A DNA stretch of 64,000 nt from Bacillota bacterium (lineage in GTDB: Bacteria; Bacillota; Limnochordia; Darwinibacteriales; Darwinibacteriaceae): positions 65,349-129,348 of the forward strand of contig DURH01000001.1 of NCBI GenBank assembly GCA_012837385.1. Reading direction: 5' to 3'. Both the position numbers and the translations under genes were made by a program. Below the pieces are notes generated by a model. The model did no database searches. It had not been told where the DNA came from and saw only the letters and a list, made by a program, of their open reading frames with translations. Of the stretch, positions 7,297 to 37,501 are shown piece by piece (within the stretch, counting starts at the first letter, position 1; each line of letters begins with the position of its first letter).

Positions 7297-7846
7297 CCCT
7301 GCCACCTCCTTCTAAGTTGGCCATGTCCCGACGGAGCCGCTGCCGTGCTGTGTAGAGCCTTGATTTCACAGTGGAGAGCGGAATCTGCAGTGCCTCGGCA
7401 ATCTCCGCTTCCTTCAGCTCAGAAACGTATTTGAGCAGTAAGGGCAGGCGGTGGTTCTCGTCCAGCGTGTTGATAGCTTGGAAGAGCTGCTTGAGTCCTT
7501 CCTTCTCCAGGGTGCTGCTCTCCGGGACATAAGCGCTGTGCCTGTTTTCCTCTTCTATTTCATAGGGCAGGTGCCCCCGATCTAAACGGCCCTTGGTTCT
7601 TTTAGCCTTGTTGATCACGATGCGCGTGAACCAGGGCTTAAAGGGCCGGTGATCCTGAAAGCTATGCAGTGAGCGGAAGGCTTGCACAAAAGCTTCTTGA
7701 ACCGCATCCTCAGCTGTGGCCCAGTTGCGGGTTACTAGGTAAGCCAGGCGGATGGCGCTGTCCAGATGCTGTCTAAAGATCTGCTCCAGGGCAGCTTCCT
7801 CGCCTTGCTTGGCCCGCTGTATCAGTTCTTGCTCTGTATAGTCCAC
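7283..7846 (-). CDS. ECF-type RNA polymerase sigma factor
   Basis: A 187-residue sigma-70 family protein with region 2 (AIRLAYLVTRNWATAEDAVQEAFVQAF, seen in parts) and region 4 (EAEIAEALQIPLSTVKSRLYTAR) and no region 3, which defines the ECF group. It starts at GTG 7846, five bases after GGGAGGA. The anti-sigma gene overlaps its end. An ECF-type promoter lies directly upstream at 7868-7894 and the same element precedes the SIMPL-domain gene at 13.4 kb, which suggests autoregulation and a small envelope-stress regulon. That regulon link is inferred from the shared promoter. Confidence 0.92.
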   Translation of the reverse strand: MDYTEQELIQRAKQGEEAALEQIFRQHLDSAIRLAYLVTRNWATAEDAVQEAFVQAFRSLHSFQDHRPFKPWFTRIVINKAKRTKGRLDRGHLPYEIEEENRHSAYVPESSTLEKEGLKQLFQAINTLDENHRLPLLLKYVSELKEAEIAEALQIPLSTVKSRLYTARQRLRRDMANLEGGGRDELR

Positions 7847-30910: not shown

Positions 30911-31003
30911 ACTGAATATTTGGCAAACCATGGGAAACCATGGGGCGCAAAGCTATAGGGGCTAAGCACTCTTGTGTATGCCAGCCAGTTGCGGTTATTT
31001 AGT
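30911..31003 (+). promoter_or_regulatory. c-di-GMP-I (GEMM-I) riboswitch aptamer
   Basis: All landmarks of the class are present. P1 is ACTGAATA (30911-30918) with TATTTAGT (30996-31003). GGCAAACC follows; P2 is CCATGG-GAAA-CCATGG with a GAAA tetraloop; then GCGCAAAGC and TATAGGGGCTAAG. P3 carries the tetraloop receptor, UAAG (30963-30966) opposite UAUG (30977-30980) with CAC/GTG, and the 3' strand GCCAGCCAGTTGC. A 12-pair intrinsic terminator follows at 31011. It should set read-through into the FapA-to-PP2C operon according to c-di-GMP. On or off behaviour cannot be read safely from sequence. Confidence 0.94.
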
Positions 31004-31010
31004 GGTGGAA

Positions 31011-31046
31011 ATACTTTCTAACTGCCTGGTTGGAGAGTATTTTTTT
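31011..31046 (+). terminator. Intrinsic terminator of the c-di-GMP riboswitch expression platform
   Basis: ATACTTTCTAAC (31011-31022) pairs with GTTGGAGAGTAT (31029-31040), 12 pairs including two G-U, with a six-base loop, followed by seven T residues. It lies 20 bases before the first start codon of the operon. Confidence 0.92.
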
Positions 31047-31065
31047 GCGTGTGAGGGGGTTCATA

Positions 31066-32943
31066 ATGGGGTTACTGCGCAGTTTGGTCAATGACGAAGT
31101 GGACGGGGAGCAGGAGACGGAAATACCTCAGGAGAACGGATTGCAGGATCAGCATGATCAGCCGGGGCGACTCGCCATAATCAATGGGCAGCTGCACATG
31201 GAGGAGCCCAAGGGCAGGGGAGCTTGGCCCGTGCTTGTACCTGGGCCAAGGGTGAAACTCTATGATGGCGAACAGCTGGTTACCAAGCCCATAGTGGTGG
31301 AAAACATCGAAGGATTGTCCATTACCGTCGATCAGGAGCCTCCTGCCAGCGCGTATGAGGTGATTGTGTCGCGCGATAAAATGGAGGTGCTGCTCAAAAC
31401 AAGTTTCAGAACGGGCAGGGCTTTTCGGTTGTGCGACGCAGATTTCGAGCAGCGCTTGGTGCTCAAAGCTGAACCAGCGGCGGATCTGCCTGCTAAGCCC
31501 ATTGATCCGAAACTGGTCTTGGCCCATTTGAAGAAAGAGGGCATTCAGACTGATCTGATTCATCCTGAAGCCATCATCGAGGCCTGCCTGGGGCGTCAGG
31601 ACACGGAGGTGGTGATCGCCAGGGGGGTGGCACCTGTGCCTCCAGTGGACGGCAGGATTGAGATTGTTTGCAGCCTGCAGACCAGGTTCAGCAGCGAAGC
31701 CCAAGGTGATCGGGTGGACTTCTTAGATCGGGGCAGCTTTAACGCAGTGAACGCCGGAGACGTTTTGGCCTGCCTGCATCATCCAGTCCCAGGTACACCA
31801 GGGAAAGATGTGTACGGCAAAGTGGTGCCGCCTCCTGCGGCACGGTCGCCCCGTTTGGTGGCTGGCTCTGGAGTGAAATTGGTCAAAAATGGAACCATGG
31901 CGGTAGCTGAAGTGACGGGGCGTCCCATCCTCAGGCGTGGTGTGCTCCAGGTCAACCCTCAGCTGGTAATTGGGCAGAACGTTGACTTGAGTACGGGCAA
32001 TGTAGAGTTCAGGGGAGACGTTGCCGTGTTGGGAGATGTTCAAGAGTCTCTTACTGTGAAGGCCGGCGGTTCGGTGGATGTCCGAGGTAGCGTCTTTCAT
32101 GCAGACATCGTGGCGGAGGAAGATGTGATTATCTCCGATAAGCTCATCGGCGGTTCTGTGGTTGCCGGAACTGATCAGCCCGGCCTCACCAAAGCTGTGC
32201 GCCTTCTGAAACTGCTGGACCGGGAGTTGGAACAGCTGCTGGCGGCATTTCGGCAGTTAAAAGCGCACCCCAGGCTTTCTGTGGCGGACCTGAGCGTGCG
32301 TGGTGACGGCTACTTAATCAAGCTGATCTTGGAGGCCCGCTTTTCCCACATTCCCAAGAAGTTCGCAGTGTTGGACGCTCTGCTGGCTGGAGAGGCTCAG
32401 TCCAGCGAAGAGGAGCTGCTGACCGTAATTAATGGTGTAAGGGCGGCGGCCAAGCGCTTTTTGGGTGCGGCGCCTTTGGAGTTTAAGCGTATCGAGGAAG
32501 TAGCGCGAGAGAAAATCCACTTGAGAGCTTACGGGGCAGAACTGGAGCAGGCGCTGGATTCCGCAGCCGATATCTATGTCTATTACTGCCAGAATGCTAA
32601 GCTGGAAGCCACCGGCAACATTACCATAACCGGTCCCCTCGCCTACGATTGTGAAGTTGTGGCTGGGGACACTTTGAGGGTGGCAGGCAACTGCCGGAGC
32701 GGGTTCTATGCCGCGACAACCGCCATCCTTGCCAAGACGGTGGGGGCCACGGGCATGGGTAAAACCGAACTCTGTGTGGGTGACAAAGGCGTCATTGGCG
32801 CGGACAAGTTCTGTCCGGGAGTGCGGCTGAGAATTGGCTCGGTGCAGACTGTGATCGAGCAGGAGTGTCTGACCACGCTCTTTTATGTGCAGGACGGAAA
32901 GCTGCACAGTAGGGAATTTCGGCAAGGAGGAGCAGTATGCTGA
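31066..32943 (+). CDS. FapA/DUF342 family protein
   Basis: A 625-residue FapA (DUF342) protein. A variable N-terminal part (about 1-150) precedes the conserved core (PPVDGRIEIV ... LACLHHPVPGTPGKDVYGK ... VTGRPILRRGVLQVNPQL) and a beta-helix-like repeat region (GNVEFRGDVAVLGDVQESL, AGGSVDVRGSVFHADIVAEED). It is soluble. The ATG at 31066 follows GAGGGGG. In Vibrio FapA links sugar uptake to flagellar assembly; most Firmicute homologues are unstudied. It is first in a five-gene overlapping operon downstream of a c-di-GMP riboswitch, which points to motility or surface control. Confidence 0.87.
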   Translation: MGLLRSLVNDEVDGEQETEIPQENGLQDQHDQPGRLAIINGQLHMEEPKGRGAWPVLVPGPRVKLYDGEQLVTKPIVVENIEGLSITVDQEPPASAYEVIVSRDKMEVLLKTSFRTGRAFRLCDADFEQRLVLKAEPAADLPAKPIDPKLVLAHLKKEGIQTDLIHPEAIIEACLGRQDTEVVIARGVAPVPPVDGRIEIVCSLQTRFSSEAQGDRVDFLDRGSFNAVNAGDVLACLHHPVPGTPGKDVYGKVVPPPAARSPRLVAGSGVKLVKNGTMAVAEVTGRPILRRGVLQVNPQLVIGQNVDLSTGNVEFRGDVAVLGDVQESLTVKAGGSVDVRGSVFHADIVAEEDVIISDKLIGGSVVAGTDQPGLTKAVRLLKLLDRELEQLLAAFRQLKAHPRLSVADLSVRGDGYLIKLILEARFSHIPKKFAVLDALLAGEAQSSEEELLTVINGVRAAAKRFLGAAPLEFKRIEEVAREKIHLRAYGAELEQALDSAADIYVYYCQNAKLEATGNITITGPLAYDCEVVAGDTLRVAGNCRSGFYAATTAILAKTVGATGMGKTELCVGDKGVIGADKFCPGVRLRIGSVQTVIEQECLTTLFYVQDGKLHSREFRQGGAVC

Positions 32944-33239
32944 GAGTAAAGGTGATTAAAGGGGTACCCGAGGTGGTTATTGCCTTGGAGGGATCCTTGG
33001 ATATGGGTACAGGCGAGGCGCTGCAGAGGGCGGTTGACGAGCTGAATCTGAACCGCATCCACAGCCTAACCTTCTCACTGAGCGGCTTGGAGATCATCGA
33101 TTCAACCGGGATTGGGCAGTTAATCGGCTACCACAGGGCTTTGAGCCAGCGGAATGGCCGGGTTTATCTTGAGAACGACAATGCAGAGATCGAGGAGATC
33201 CTTGGATTGATTGGCGTAAGGGAGATCTTGAGGTCATGA
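32937..33239 (+). CDS. STAS-domain anti-sigma factor antagonist (SpoIIAA/RsbV-like)
   Basis: A 100-residue single STAS domain. The phosphorylation motif LEIIDSTGIGQLIGYHRA carries the serine of DSTG that the partner kinase modifies. Opening VKVIKGVPEVVIALEGSLD is typical of the fold. AAGGAGGAG precedes the ATG, which overlaps the FapA stop by seven bases. In partner switching the dephosphorylated form binds the HATPase anti-sigma factor and frees its target. The kinase and phosphatase of the switch are encoded in the same operon. Confidence 0.92.
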   Translation: MLRVKVIKGVPEVVIALEGSLDMGTGEALQRAVDELNLNRIHSLTFSLSGLEIIDSTGIGQLIGYHRALSQRNGRVYLENDNAEIEEILGLIGVREILRS

Positions 33240-33976
33240 CGCTGCCGGGATTTGATCTGATTTCCGCCACAGGCGGGTGGGCTTTTCCCATCTTCGCGGT
33301 GCTGGGCTGCTATTTTTGCTACCGCCTGGGCCGTCGCGTGCAAAAGGCCAAAACCGAGCAGGCCAAGGATCAGGAGCTCTTTGCCGCCTATCAGGAAGTT
33401 ATCCCCCTGGTTACCTGCGGCACCTTGCGCTTGATTTCGCCTGAAGAATATCAGAACGCCTACTCCAAGGACAAGCCTCTTTTGGTGATCGACATTAAAC
33501 AGAAGGATGATGTGCGCCTCGTCCGCCAAACAGTGGATCAGTTTTTTTCCGGGGTGTTCACTACTTGGAGCGAAGTCCGCGGGGGGATTCTCACTGCCCT
33601 ATCAGAAGCAGTGACCAATGTGGTTAAGCACACACCTGGTGGCAGGCTGTTGGTGTATTTGGATCCGGCCGGCCCAAGATTTCATGTGGAGGATTACGGC
33701 AGCGGGATGGATCTGGCTAAGCTGCCTGCCATGTTTGTCAGTGGCTATTCCGAGAAATCCACCTTGGGAGCTGGTTTCACCATTATGATGCGCTATGTGG
33801 AGCAGATCGAAATCTGCACATCAGAGGCAGGGGTCTCCTTAGTTCTGAGGACCAATGTGGGGCAGATGCTGAGCCGAAAGCGTACCCGAAGGGAGGGCGG
33901 CGATTTCCATGCGCTTAGTTGCCGTGCAGCGGCTGAAGCCGGGAATGGTTGTGGGCAAAACCATCTTTGGCAGTAA
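33236..33976 (+). CDS. Membrane-anchored HATPase (anti-sigma/serine kinase, RsbW-like)
   Basis: A 246-residue protein with one N-terminal hydrophobic helix (WAFPIFAVLGCYFCYRLG), a linker and a GHKL ATPase domain: N box ALSEAVTNVVKH, G1 box EDYGSGMDL and a G2-type GAGFTIMM. This matches the RsbW/SpoIIAB kinases that phosphorylate STAS partners. The membrane anchor is unusual for that family. Its start overlaps the STAS stop as ATGA. The last 22 codons overlap the HD-GYP gene by 68 bases, and this tail is not conserved-looking. No sigma factor gene is adjacent, so the final target is unknown. Confidence 0.87.
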   Translation: MTLPGFDLISATGGWAFPIFAVLGCYFCYRLGRRVQKAKTEQAKDQELFAAYQEVIPLVTCGTLRLISPEEYQNAYSKDKPLLVIDIKQKDDVRLVRQTVDQFFSGVFTTWSEVRGGILTALSEAVTNVVKHTPGGRLLVYLDPAGPRFHVEDYGSGMDLAKLPAMFVSGYSEKSTLGAGFTIMMRYVEQIEICTSEAGVSLVLRTNVGQMLSRKRTRREGGDFHALSCRAAAEAGNGCGQNHLWQ

Positions 33977-34919
33977 CGGCCAAATCCTGCTCAAGCAGGG
34001 AGTTGAGCTTACTCAACGCTATATCAACCACCTCCAGGAGCACTTTATCGAGGTTGTGTACATCACTACAGGCAGTGATGTTTCTGCCGACGACGTGATC
34101 AGCGATCAAACCAGGATCAAGGCCCTGCGCGAGACCAAGAGAATTCTCAGCGCAGTTAAGCGCGGTGCGGAAGTGGAAATCGAGCAGGTGCGCCAAGCCC
34201 TAATCGGGATCATCGACGAGCTGCTGCTCCACGATGATGTCATGGTTAACCTGGTGGATATCCGCTCCCACAATGAGGAGCTTTTCCACCACAGCCTCAA
34301 TGTGTCCATCCTCTCGGTGATAGTAGGAATTGAACTGCAGTTCAGCCAGAATAGGTTGAAGGACTTGGCGGTAGCTGCCCTTCTCCATGACATGGGCAAA
34401 GTATTAGATGAAGACGAGAAGCAGCATTTGGTTGTCGGCCGCAGGATTCTGCGGGAGAACAAGAGGGTGGGGCGCAGGATACTCGATGCTATCTCCCAGC
34501 ACCATGAACGCTGGGATGGCCAGGGCTTTCCCGAGGGGCTGGCGGGGGAGGACATTTGTCGGGAGGCCCGAATATTACAGGTTACCAATGTTTTTGACTT
34601 GATGTCTGCCAACTCCAGGTATCCAGTGGAGGAGGTTATTGAGTTCCTCATGGCAGGGAGCGGTACCGCTTTTGAGCCTGCTGCCGTACGGGCGTTCCTC
34701 AACTGCGTATCCTTCTATCCAGTGGGAACACCAGTCGAACTAAATACGGGTGAGTCCGGGATCGTGACCAGGGCCAACCGGGGCTTTCCCACCAGGCCTG
34801 TGGTGCGGGTAACCAGCAATGCCTTTGGGCCTATTGAGCATTCCTATGAGCTGGATCTCACAGTGCATCCAACCCATTTCGTGCTCAAGACCTTGGAGAG
34901 TGAGGACTGGGACGAATGA
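33909..34919 (+). CDS. HD-GYP domain protein (possible c-di-GMP phosphodiesterase)
   Basis: A 336-residue protein. An N-terminal domain of about 110 residues resembles DUF3391-like modules (LKPGMVVGKTIFGSNGQILLKQGVEL). The HD domain follows: HNEELFHHSLNVS, LLHDMGKVLDEDE, then SQHHERWDGQGFPEGLAG. The GYP signature is GFP here, a conservative change seen in some members. A C-terminal segment of about 60 residues (GTPVELNTGESGIVTR) is typical. AGGGAGG lies twelve bases before the ATG. Encoded inside an operon switched by a c-di-GMP riboswitch, it could form a feedback loop on the ligand; activity is inferred. Confidence 0.88.
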   Translation: MRLVAVQRLKPGMVVGKTIFGSNGQILLKQGVELTQRYINHLQEHFIEVVYITTGSDVSADDVISDQTRIKALRETKRILSAVKRGAEVEIEQVRQALIGIIDELLLHDDVMVNLVDIRSHNEELFHHSLNVSILSVIVGIELQFSQNRLKDLAVAALLHDMGKVLDEDEKQHLVVGRRILRENKRVGRRILDAISQHHERWDGQGFPEGLAGEDICREARILQVTNVFDLMSANSRYPVEEVIEFLMAGSGTAFEPAAVRAFLNCVSFYPVGTPVELNTGESGIVTRANRGFPTRPVVRVTSNAFGPIEHSYELDLTVHPTHFVLKTLESEDWDE

Positions 34920-36100
34920 GACTGTCTGAGTACCATGGAGACTTTGTGCACAGTTTATATGAGGCTTGCCTGAGCTCTGAAACCGCGCCCTTTGAGGCCC
35001 TGGGCCGGGAGCTGATCAGGGGGCTTGAGGCTGTGGCTGTATCCATCTGGACAGAACATCCCCGGGTACCTGGAGCACTGTCCAGGATGGTTTACCAGCA
35101 GACTTTGAAGAATGACGAGCTGCCGCAGCAGGACTACTATGCTGCTCGGCGAGTTCAGTCAGCAGAAGGGCTGATCACAGACACCGTCACCCTGAAAGAT
35201 AGACGACGCCTCTCCTACTGCGCGCTTCCCCTTAGGGGCCGCAAAGCCCAGTTTTTCCTGGTCTTTTGGGCTTCGGAACCGTTTGGAGAGCAGGAGGCAC
35301 ATGTTCTCAGCGAGCTGGCTGGCAGGCTGTGCACCCTGCTGGATGTGGTCTTGTCCAGCGATCTCTTCCAGGTGCAGCGAGTGAGCAGTGAGCTTCAGGC
35401 TGCCCAGTTCCTGCAAAGACAGCTCATGCCCTGCCTAGACTGCCTGCCCTCCGAGTCGCAATTGGCCTACCGCAACCTCCCCGTCCATGAACTGGGTGGA
35501 GACTACCTCGATGTACTGCGCTATCCCAATGGCACTCTGGGATTAACGGTGGCTGATGCCATGGGATCCGGTGTGCCGGCAGCGTTCGTTATGGTTATGG
35601 CCAGAACCATATTCCGCTTGATCACCAAGGTGACTACAACTCCCAGCAGTGTACTCCACGAACTAAACAACCACTTCATCTCCGAAATTGCCGATGTAAA
35701 CACCTTTGTCACCCAGTTCTACGCCGTCTTTGATCCTGTCAGCAGGCGTTTGGAATACGCCAATGCCGGCCATAACGCCCCTGTCTTACTTAGGCGGGAA
35801 ACGGGGAAAGTGGCCTTTCTGCCTGGCAGAGGCATTGCCCTAGGCGGAGTGGGCGATTCTGAATACGTCCAAAAGAGCATTGACCTGGAGGAGGGCGACA
35901 TCTTGGTGATGTACACCGATGGCCTCAAAGAGGCCAGGGATGATCAAAATAACAGCTTTGGCCTCCAGGGGATTTCCCGTACTCTGCTCAATTACAAGGA
36001 ATACAGTGCTGAAGGAATCTGCGATGGGCTGATCAACAATGTGCTCCGCCACAGCAGTGTCCAGGTTGATGATCTGAGTTTTTTGGTGTTGAAGGCCTAA
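34916..36100 (+). CDS. PP2C-type serine phosphatase (SpoIIE/RsbU-like)
   Basis: A 394-residue protein with an N-terminal GAF-like sensor part (about 1-155), a short coiled linker (QVQRVSSELQAAQFLQRQLMP) and a C-terminal PP2C_2 phosphatase. The metal-site motifs are VHELGGDYLDV, VADAMGSGVPAA and VMYTDGLKEARD. This is the RsbU/SpoIIE class that dephosphorylates STAS antagonists. The ATG overlaps the HD-GYP stop as ATGA. It closes the partner-switch circuit, antagonist, kinase and phosphatase, and its sensor part is a second possible signal input beside the riboswitch. A terminator follows. Confidence 0.91.
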   Translation: MRLSEYHGDFVHSLYEACLSSETAPFEALGRELIRGLEAVAVSIWTEHPRVPGALSRMVYQQTLKNDELPQQDYYAARRVQSAEGLITDTVTLKDRRRLSYCALPLRGRKAQFFLVFWASEPFGEQEAHVLSELAGRLCTLLDVVLSSDLFQVQRVSSELQAAQFLQRQLMPCLDCLPSESQLAYRNLPVHELGGDYLDVLRYPNGTLGLTVADAMGSGVPAAFVMVMARTIFRLITKVTTTPSSVLHELNNHFISEIADVNTFVTQFYAVFDPVSRRLEYANAGHNAPVLLRRETGKVAFLPGRGIALGGVGDSEYVQKSIDLEEGDILVMYTDGLKEARDDQNNSFGLQGISRTLLNYKEYSAEGICDGLINNVLRHSSVQVDDLSFLVLKA

Positions 36101-36105
36101 CTACA

Positions 36106-36134
36106 AGGTGCGTCCGGGAGACGTGCCTTTTTTG
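36106..36134 (+). terminator. Intrinsic terminator of the partner-switching operon
   Basis: AAGGTGCGTC and GACGTGCCTT pair with two G-U/mismatch positions around CGGGA, followed by TTTTTTG. Confidence 0.75.
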
Positions 36135-36244
36135 TTACGGGGAAAAATCGGGCGCGTTAAGAGGATATTATCATTTTGAGCCGAAGATAACAAACAAGTG
36201 CAATAAAAACAACGGCGGCAAAATGAGCATAAGGAGTAATGGGG

Positions 36245-37045
36245 ATGAGCAAGCAGTTATATGACTTAGACTATCTCGATCTGGAAAGCGCAAAGCAGCG
36301 AATCCGTGAGCTTGAGGACAAGCTTGCCTGGGAAACACGCCTGCTGAGGGCCATCAAGGACAACTTCGACGTTGCCGTCTACGCCAAGGACTTGGAAGGC
36401 AGAAAAATCTTGACTAACCGTGTGGATTTGGAGAACCAGGGCCTAACCGATGAGTCCCAGGTTCTGGGGAAAACCGACTTCGACCTGTTTCCGCGCCATA
36501 TTGCTGAGCAGTTCTGGCGCGACGACTCCACAGTGCTTAAGCAGGGCAAATCCATAATCAATCGGGAAGAGCTTCTGGTTGAAAAGGCCACCGGTAAAGA
36601 GCGATGGCTGCGCACTTCCAAACTGCCCATCCATGATGAAAGTGGCCAGGTGATCGGCTTGGTGGGCTTCGGTCAGGACATCACCCTAGAGAAGCAGCTG
36701 GAAAGGGAGAATGTGGAGGCTGCTACCAGAATTAAAGAGCAGGAAGATGCGGTGGAAGAGATGATCTCGGAACTGGGCAAAATCCCTGAGAACATCGGCA
36801 AGCTCGTTAATGCCATCACCTACATCGCCAGGCAGACCAAGATGGTCTCCATCAATGCCACCATTGAAGCGGCTAGGCTGGGAGATTTGGGACGGGGCTT
36901 TGAAGTAGTGGCGGAAGAGGTGGGCCAGCTTTCGGATCGATCAAGCGAGGCGGCCACTCAGGTGAGAGATGCCATTGCCGAGGTTGAAACCTTGGTCACC
37001 AAAATACTAGAGGTCTGGAAGACACGCAACGGAGCGCACAAATAA
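36245..37045 (+). CDS. Soluble PAS-domain protein with a short methyl-accepting signalling core
   Basis: A 266-residue protein with no membrane segment: an N-terminal coiled stretch (LDLESAKQRIRELEDKLAWE), a PAS domain (about residues 35-155, DNFDVAVYAKDLEGRKI ... VGFGQDITLEKQ), and about 100 residues matching only the tip of an MCP signalling domain (TKMVSINATIEAARLGDLG and RGFEVVAEEVGQLSDRSSEAA). The long methylation helices are missing. It could couple a cytoplasmic signal to CheW/CheA arrays or act outside chemotaxis. The ATG at 36245 lies eight bases after AAGGAG. It stands alone. Confidence 0.85.
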   Translation: MSKQLYDLDYLDLESAKQRIRELEDKLAWETRLLRAIKDNFDVAVYAKDLEGRKILTNRVDLENQGLTDESQVLGKTDFDLFPRHIAEQFWRDDSTVLKQGKSIINREELLVEKATGKERWLRTSKLPIHDESGQVIGLVGFGQDITLEKQLERENVEAATRIKEQEDAVEEMISELGKIPENIGKLVNAITYIARQTKMVSINATIEAARLGDLGRGFEVVAEEVGQLSDRSSEAATQVRDAIAEVETLVTKILEVWKTRNGAHK

Positions 37046-37335: not shown

Positions 37336-37375
37336 CAAAAAAACGCATGCCTCTACCATGAGATAACATACGCTT
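37336..37375 (-). terminator. Intrinsic terminator of the c-di-AMP riboswitch expression platform
   Basis: On the minus strand GCGTATG and CATGCGT pair (G-U tolerated) around an AT-rich loop, followed by seven T residues, between the aptamer and the zinc-ribbon gene. Confidence 0.78.
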
Positions 37376-37380
37376 GGTGT

Positions 37381-37494
37381 ACTCCTACGGGGTTAGCTGA
37401 CGGATTAGGACACCCAAGTTGCCCCTCCTGCTCTGCCGGAGCAGGATTCACCCCAAGAGATGGTTCCCCCGCTGACTGTGCTATTCGGAGATGT
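37381..37494 (-). promoter_or_regulatory. c-di-AMP (ydaO/yuaA) riboswitch aptamer
   Basis: The minus strand carries the conserved blocks of the ydaO/yuaA class in order: CTCCGAAT, GCGGGGGAACCA, TTGGGGTGAATCC, an internal hairpin CCTGCTC/GAGCAGG, GGGGCAACTT, and the highly conserved CCGTCAGCTAACCCCGTAGG at the 3' end. CTCC and GGAG close P1. A terminator follows, and known members switch expression off when c-di-AMP binds. Usual targets are potassium or osmolyte transporters and cell wall hydrolases; here the target is a 55-residue zinc-ribbon protein. Confidence 0.93.
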
Positions 37495-37501
37495 CACTTA
37501 T

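Follow-up and report, generated by a model that had tools for sequence, protein, structure and literature searches.

A 64,000-nucleotide stretch of a Bacillota genome (contig DURH01000001.1, positions 65,349 to 129,348 of the forward strand; hereafter the window) carries a c-di-GMP-I riboswitch directly in front of five overlapping genes, which encode the three components of a partner switch, that is, a STAS antagonist, a GHKL-type HATPase and a PP2C phosphatase, together with a FapA-family protein and an HD-GYP-like protein. This arrangement is confirmed as real and conserved among relatives, and it is best read, with a probability of roughly 0.6, as a self-contained signalling operon gated by an OFF riboswitch for cyclic di-GMP (c-di-GMP), in which the HD-GYP-like protein is probably non-catalytic and FapA the likely output. 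Protein signals are the input usually ascribed to partner switches, and the genes usually assigned to c-di-GMP-I riboswitches serve motility, adhesion or the turnover of c-di-GMP. Here an entire partner switch would be gated by a riboswitch of this class in a conserved operon, which would join these two types of regulation. We could find no described counterpart; in the searchable literature, which leaves out most subscription journals, nothing that links a c-di-GMP riboswitch to partner switches, STAS proteins or FapA described this arrangement. The elements of the locus are the following.

30912-30996, plus strand: c-di-GMP-I (GEMM-I) riboswitch aptamer (Rfam RF01051)
30981-31033, plus strand: predicted antiterminator, 30981-30997 (3' side of the aptamer, P3/P1) paired with 31019-31033
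31007-31050, plus strand: intrinsic terminator with U-tract between aptamer and fapA (hairpin 31007-31044; from folding)
31066-32943, plus strand: FapA-family protein, 625 amino acids (PF20250, 2.9e-33; PF03961, 6.9e-24)
32937-33239, plus strand: STAS antagonist with D-S-[T/S]-G site (PF01740, 1.3e-12; TIGR02886, 2.8e-14, below its cut-off)
33236-33976, plus strand: GHKL HATPase of the SpoIIAB/RsbW type (PF02518, 6.4e-09; PF13581, 4.6e-07)
33909-34919, plus strand: HD-GYP-like protein, degraded (PF13487, 2.7e-20; alignments)
34916-36100, plus strand: PP2C phosphatase of the SpoIIE/RsbU type (PF07228, 1.9e-48)
36105-36133, plus strand: intrinsic terminator ending the operon (10-pair hairpin, -13.4 kcal/mol, then T6)

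The aptamer, proposed by a first-pass annotation from the bare sequence, was borne out by the RF01051 covariance model with 69.1 bits (E 1.9e-11) against a gathering score of 35 bits, and the conserved core, the GAAA tetraloop and P1 can all be seen in the alignment. It is followed by a hairpin of 17 pairs at 31007-31044 with a U-tract (-17.6 kcal/mol, z -5.5), matched in stability by none of 200 shuffled sequences; the earlier annotation had recognized this terminator correctly and drawn it slightly short, with 12 pairs at 31011-31046. A simple pattern scan for terminators returned nothing between the aptamer and fapA, where direct folding shows the strong hairpin, probably because the long A-U stem merges with, or uses up, the run of T. 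A terminator hairpin 3' of the aptamer was also present in the other copies of the locus that were folded (see below).

The terminator lies wholly downstream of the aptamer, with no overlap, and the predicted antiterminator joins the 3' side of the aptamer to the left arm, the loop and the beginning of the right arm of the terminator (local fold in the window -23.3 kcal/mol, z -4.0). Comparable pairing occurs in the minimum-energy nascent fold of the window and of the copies G002, G025, G052, G007 and L049, and partially in G006, with shuffle p-values per copy of 0.003-0.097, which were not combined formally as the copies are related. With a terminator that stands outside the aptamer and is able to pair with the aptamer's 3' strand, the anatomy is that of an OFF switch, and the riboswitch looks like one that responds to c-di-GMP in this direction. 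In the c-di-GMP-I switches of C. difficile, transcription is terminated at high c-di-GMP (PMC3649979).

Behind the riboswitch, gene coordinates and domain matches agree with the five-gene operon as first described, successive genes overlapping by 7, 4, 68 and 4 bases. Among 73 genomes sampled for the class, an HD-GYP protein of the operon type is found in 13, and in the window's genus in only two of six genomes; within the class these proteins are clearly separate from other HD-GYPs (E below 1e-100 as against 8e-78 and weaker). The order FapA-STAS-HATPase-HD-GYP-PP2C is retained in every copy whose contig is long enough, and RF01051 stands directly before fapA in all ten copies with upstream DNA, namely the window and G002, G019, G010, G017, G025, G006, G052, G007 and L049. 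Copies with this linkage range from members of the window's own genus to a different family of the class, and its occurrence in ten of ten, against a background of a few such riboswitches per genome, argues that it is not due to chance; the nine copies other than the window amount to fewer than nine independent cases, since G010 and G017 are almost duplicates of one another and L049 closely resembles G011. A covariance score above the cut-off and a linkage conserved in the window's lineage support the proposal that a whole partner switch has been placed behind a second-messenger RNA switch. The presence of flagella is uninformative as a correlate of the operon, FliM/FliN being found in 72 of the 73 class genomes. 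The record of L049 (DUTM01000097.1) is titled 'Mycobacteriales bacterium', its operon is almost identical to that of the Bacillota genome G011, and the title probably reflects a mislabelled bin.

The gene set recurs in a second lineage, drawn from a sample of the phylum and from fetched regions and made up of Bacillota of other classes. There the same five families appear in five genomes in the order (GAF-HD-GYP-HATPase fusion)-HD-GYP-PP2C-FapA-STAS-HATPase; in G194 and G324 the contig limits how much of it can be seen. Upstream DNA is available for five copies, and in two of them (L169 and L170) RF01051 stands before the operon; gene set and riboswitch are thus associated in both lineages, although in the second the operon also occurs without it. 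The fusion unites GAF, HD-GYP (with intact motifs) and SpoIIAB-type HATPase domains in one protein (L169, 8353-10992, minus strand; L170, 185-2383, plus strand), which in these two loci heads the operon directly behind the riboswitch.

The residues expected of a working partner switch are conserved. The DS[T/S]G phosphorylation motif of STAS is retained in 12 copies, and the E/N of the N-box and the G1 and G2 boxes of the HATPase, as well as the metal-binding aspartates of PP2C, are conserved across the copies. A predicted model of PP2C matched domains of RssB, SiaA-PP2C and RsbU in a fold search, and the secondary structure of the model permits the reading that its N-terminal region is GAF-like. 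The description of the HATPase as a membrane protein did not hold: the window protein has a weak N-terminal hydrophobic segment (best 19-residue hydropathy 1.46), and membrane segments are not conserved among the copies. G025, G011 and L049 have clear ones, G002 has a weak one like the window, and other copies have none.

The HD-GYP-like protein was compared with PmGH (4mcw) and with paralogues from outside the operon, checking the PmGH residues D183, E185, H189, H221, D222, K225, H250, H276, H277 and D305. In the window, asparagine occupies the positions of D183 and D305 and the other checked residues are retained, E124, H128, H160-D161, H173 and H198-H199 corresponding to metal ligands of PmGH. 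The D305 position is asparagine in most copies as well, and the K225 position is replaced in many. In every copy of the window's lineage, 14-17 residues are missing after the HD motif (HDxG; HDMGK in the window), a segment that non-operon paralogues possess as IPxxILxKPGxLTxxE after HDIGK, and four residues are missing from the RPY region. In PmGH, no activity is left after the exchange D183A or K225A, and after D305A it is strongly reduced (PMC4159591). The window protein is therefore not a convincing phosphodiesterase and is probably non-catalytic. The closed feedback loop that had been proposed through a c-di-GMP enzyme of the operon is left unsupported, because features of active phosphodiesterases are lacking throughout the lineage. 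In the second lineage, the HD-GYP domain of the fusion looks intact, and the stand-alone protein is degraded in most genomes, with alanine or a Thr-Ala context at the D305 position and valine, isoleucine or threonine at the K225 position; G194, which retains both residues, is an exception. That degradation recurs there suggests a non-catalytic role. Such a domain can serve as a receptor, as seen in DvhD, an HD-GYP protein without metal ligands that binds c-di-GMP and does not cut it (PMC13090378).

The operon FapA of the window possesses both the FapA_N and the beta-solenoid domain (115.2 and 85.3 bits). The operon proteins share ≈ 46% mean identity among themselves and ≈ 26% with a FapA paralogue from the window's genome, which is located in a chemotaxis/flagellar cluster on contig C65, a cluster to which the operon FapA does not belong. 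A sequence search of the PDB with the operon FapA gave no match, and a model of the protein gave weak matches to MinC-like folds alone. In the tree of FapA sequences the outgroup was one sequence on a long branch. FapA is tied to the partner switch in two gene orders, and as the sole non-regulatory protein that is always encoded with the switch it is its likely end effector. FapA is poorly understood, and its company with a STAS protein, kinase, phosphatase and degraded HD-GYP in two lineages offers a testable hypothesis on how a FapA paralogue is controlled.

From these elements the following course of events can be envisaged. At low c-di-GMP, the aptamer would be free, its 3' strand would pair with the left arm and loop of the terminator, and RNA polymerase would read through into the operon; at high c-di-GMP, the bound aptamer would hold this strand, such that the terminator forms and the operon is turned off. 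As their intact motifs suggest, the GHKL kinase would place a phosphate on the conserved serine of STAS, the PP2C phosphatase, which has a GAF-like sensory region, would strip it off again, and unphosphorylated STAS would bind its target. The HD-GYP-like protein may act as a non-catalytic receptor of c-di-GMP or as a partner regulated by STAS, with FapA as the most likely end effector. In this way c-di-GMP would control by way of the RNA how much of the module is made, and the degraded HD-GYP might in addition let it influence the module's state. A fuller version, rather unlikely at present, has c-di-GMP setting both the synthesis and the state of the switch as a genuine dual input, with FapA, not a sigma factor, as output and phosphorylation of STAS directly governing its assembly or placement.

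Several observations weigh against this account. In the near-identical pair G019/G017 the antiterminator pairing is weaker and the aptamer is retained in the nascent fold. The case for FapA as target is one of co-occurrence, which makes that role possible, and a distant sigma factor could be the target instead. The latter thought leads to the classical arrangement, in which the HATPase would act as kinase and anti-sigma factor, holding an unlinked sigma factor until STAS frees it, with FapA and HD-GYP merely co-expressed. Among solved structures the HATPase is indeed closest to the anti-sigma F factors SpoIIAB, the genome holds 11 Sigma70_r2 matches, and the only other strong SpoIIAB-type match adjoins a sigma factor gene, as in the SigF operon. 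On the other hand, FapA and HD-GYP accompany the switch in both lineages and in either gene order, and no sigma factor adjoins the operon of the window, as had been noted before: the nearest match found (Sigma70_r2, about 7583-7780, minus strand, within an open frame of 207 amino acids) is 23 kb away; an anti-sigma function appears unlikely. The loss of a single residue is no proof that an HD-GYP domain is inactive, as VCA0681 is active without the aspartate at D308 (PMC4212101). If the window protein were a working phosphodiesterase for c-di-GMP or a related molecule under the control of STAS, then low c-di-GMP would cause more of it to be made, and the OFF switch would produce positive, not negative, feedback and a bistable system. 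The match of its metal ligands to those of PmGH, the position of an HD-GYP gene with intact motifs behind the second riboswitch of the same genome (see below) and the precedents for STAS control of c-di-GMP enzymes speak for this; the missing residues after HDxG, the changed D183 and D305 positions in the window and the changed K225 position in many copies speak against it and render it distinctly doubtful.

The riboswitch itself might be constitutive, an ON switch or decayed, its linkage to the operon reflecting common descent alone. The copies within the window's lineage are related, and in the second lineage RF01051 is absent before the operon in three of the five copies with upstream DNA (L171-L173). 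Relatives that keep the gene set without the riboswitch, which the first-pass annotation had named as a finding that would tell against its proposal, thus exist in the second lineage and not among the ten copies with upstream DNA in the window's own. However, the aptamer core is invariant across the copies, while the arms of the terminator change in sequence and still remain paired, and a terminator outside the aptamer is the anatomy of an OFF switch, which leaves this alternative very improbable. The operon gated by a c-di-GMP OFF switch therefore remains the preferred reading.

c-di-GMP-I riboswitches are found in 58 of the 73 class genomes, mostly a few per genome, and the first genes downstream of those outside the operon include flagellar basal-body, leader peptidase, Tad, chemoreceptor and HD-GYP genes. 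The second one in the genome of the window (L041, 7367-7453, contig C68; 82.8 bits) lies immediately before an HD-GYP gene, whose motifs are intact, and a CheW-like gene, and a c-di-GMP feedback loop is more plausible at this locus than at the operon described here. Past the operon terminator lies a gene for a short PAS and MCP-signalling protein of 268 amino acids (36239-37045, plus strand), with homologues close to the operon in G002 and G025; it was ruled out as part of the operon, given the intervening terminator and the differing positions of the homologues in these, the only two other loci. On the opposite strand, 1.3 kb past the operon, there is a cyclic di-AMP (ydaO) riboswitch (37366-37500, minus strand; 80.6 bits), and the first open reading frame behind it (37304-37137) encodes 55 amino acids, cysteine-rich and zinc-ribbon-like.

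With regard to known systems, the window shares with SpoIIAA/SpoIIAB/SpoIIE and RsbV/RsbW/RsbU the phosphoserine STAS protein, the GHKL kinase and the PP2C phosphatase, and it differs from them by the lack of an adjacent sigma factor gene, the added genes for FapA and the HD-GYP-like protein, and the riboswitch in front. In HsbA-HsbD, BgrSTUWV-BgrR and SiaABCD of Proteobacteria, a phosphatase, a kinase and a STAS or STAS-like protein are likewise tied to c-di-GMP, with the STAS or STAS-like protein acting on a diguanylate cyclase (HsbA on HsbD, BgrV on BgrR, SiaC on SiaD) and c-di-GMP as the output (PMC8457831); in the window, by contrast, c-di-GMP would be the input that controls expression, the protein that accompanies the switch is a degraded HD-GYP, and there is FapA in addition. 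DvhD from Desulfovibrio vulgaris resembles the HD-GYP-like protein in its replaced residues, those of the metal ligands in its case, and binds c-di-GMP without hydrolysis (PMC13090378), although it has a periplasmic sensory domain and works in a LapD-like manner, whereas the window protein lacks a domain of this kind and is missing residues behind its HD motif. The flagellar FapA proteins (Borrelia bb0267, PMC11607428, and the one on C65) have the same family domains as the operon FapA, which differs from the latter in sequence and location and lacks its N-terminal extension. Finally, Cdi1_3 before the flgB operon of C. difficile combines, like the window, a c-di-GMP-I aptamer with a terminator-type platform and terminates prematurely at high c-di-GMP (PMC3649979); there the genes behind the switch are flagellar or adhesin genes, whereas in the window the riboswitch precedes a partner-switching operon.

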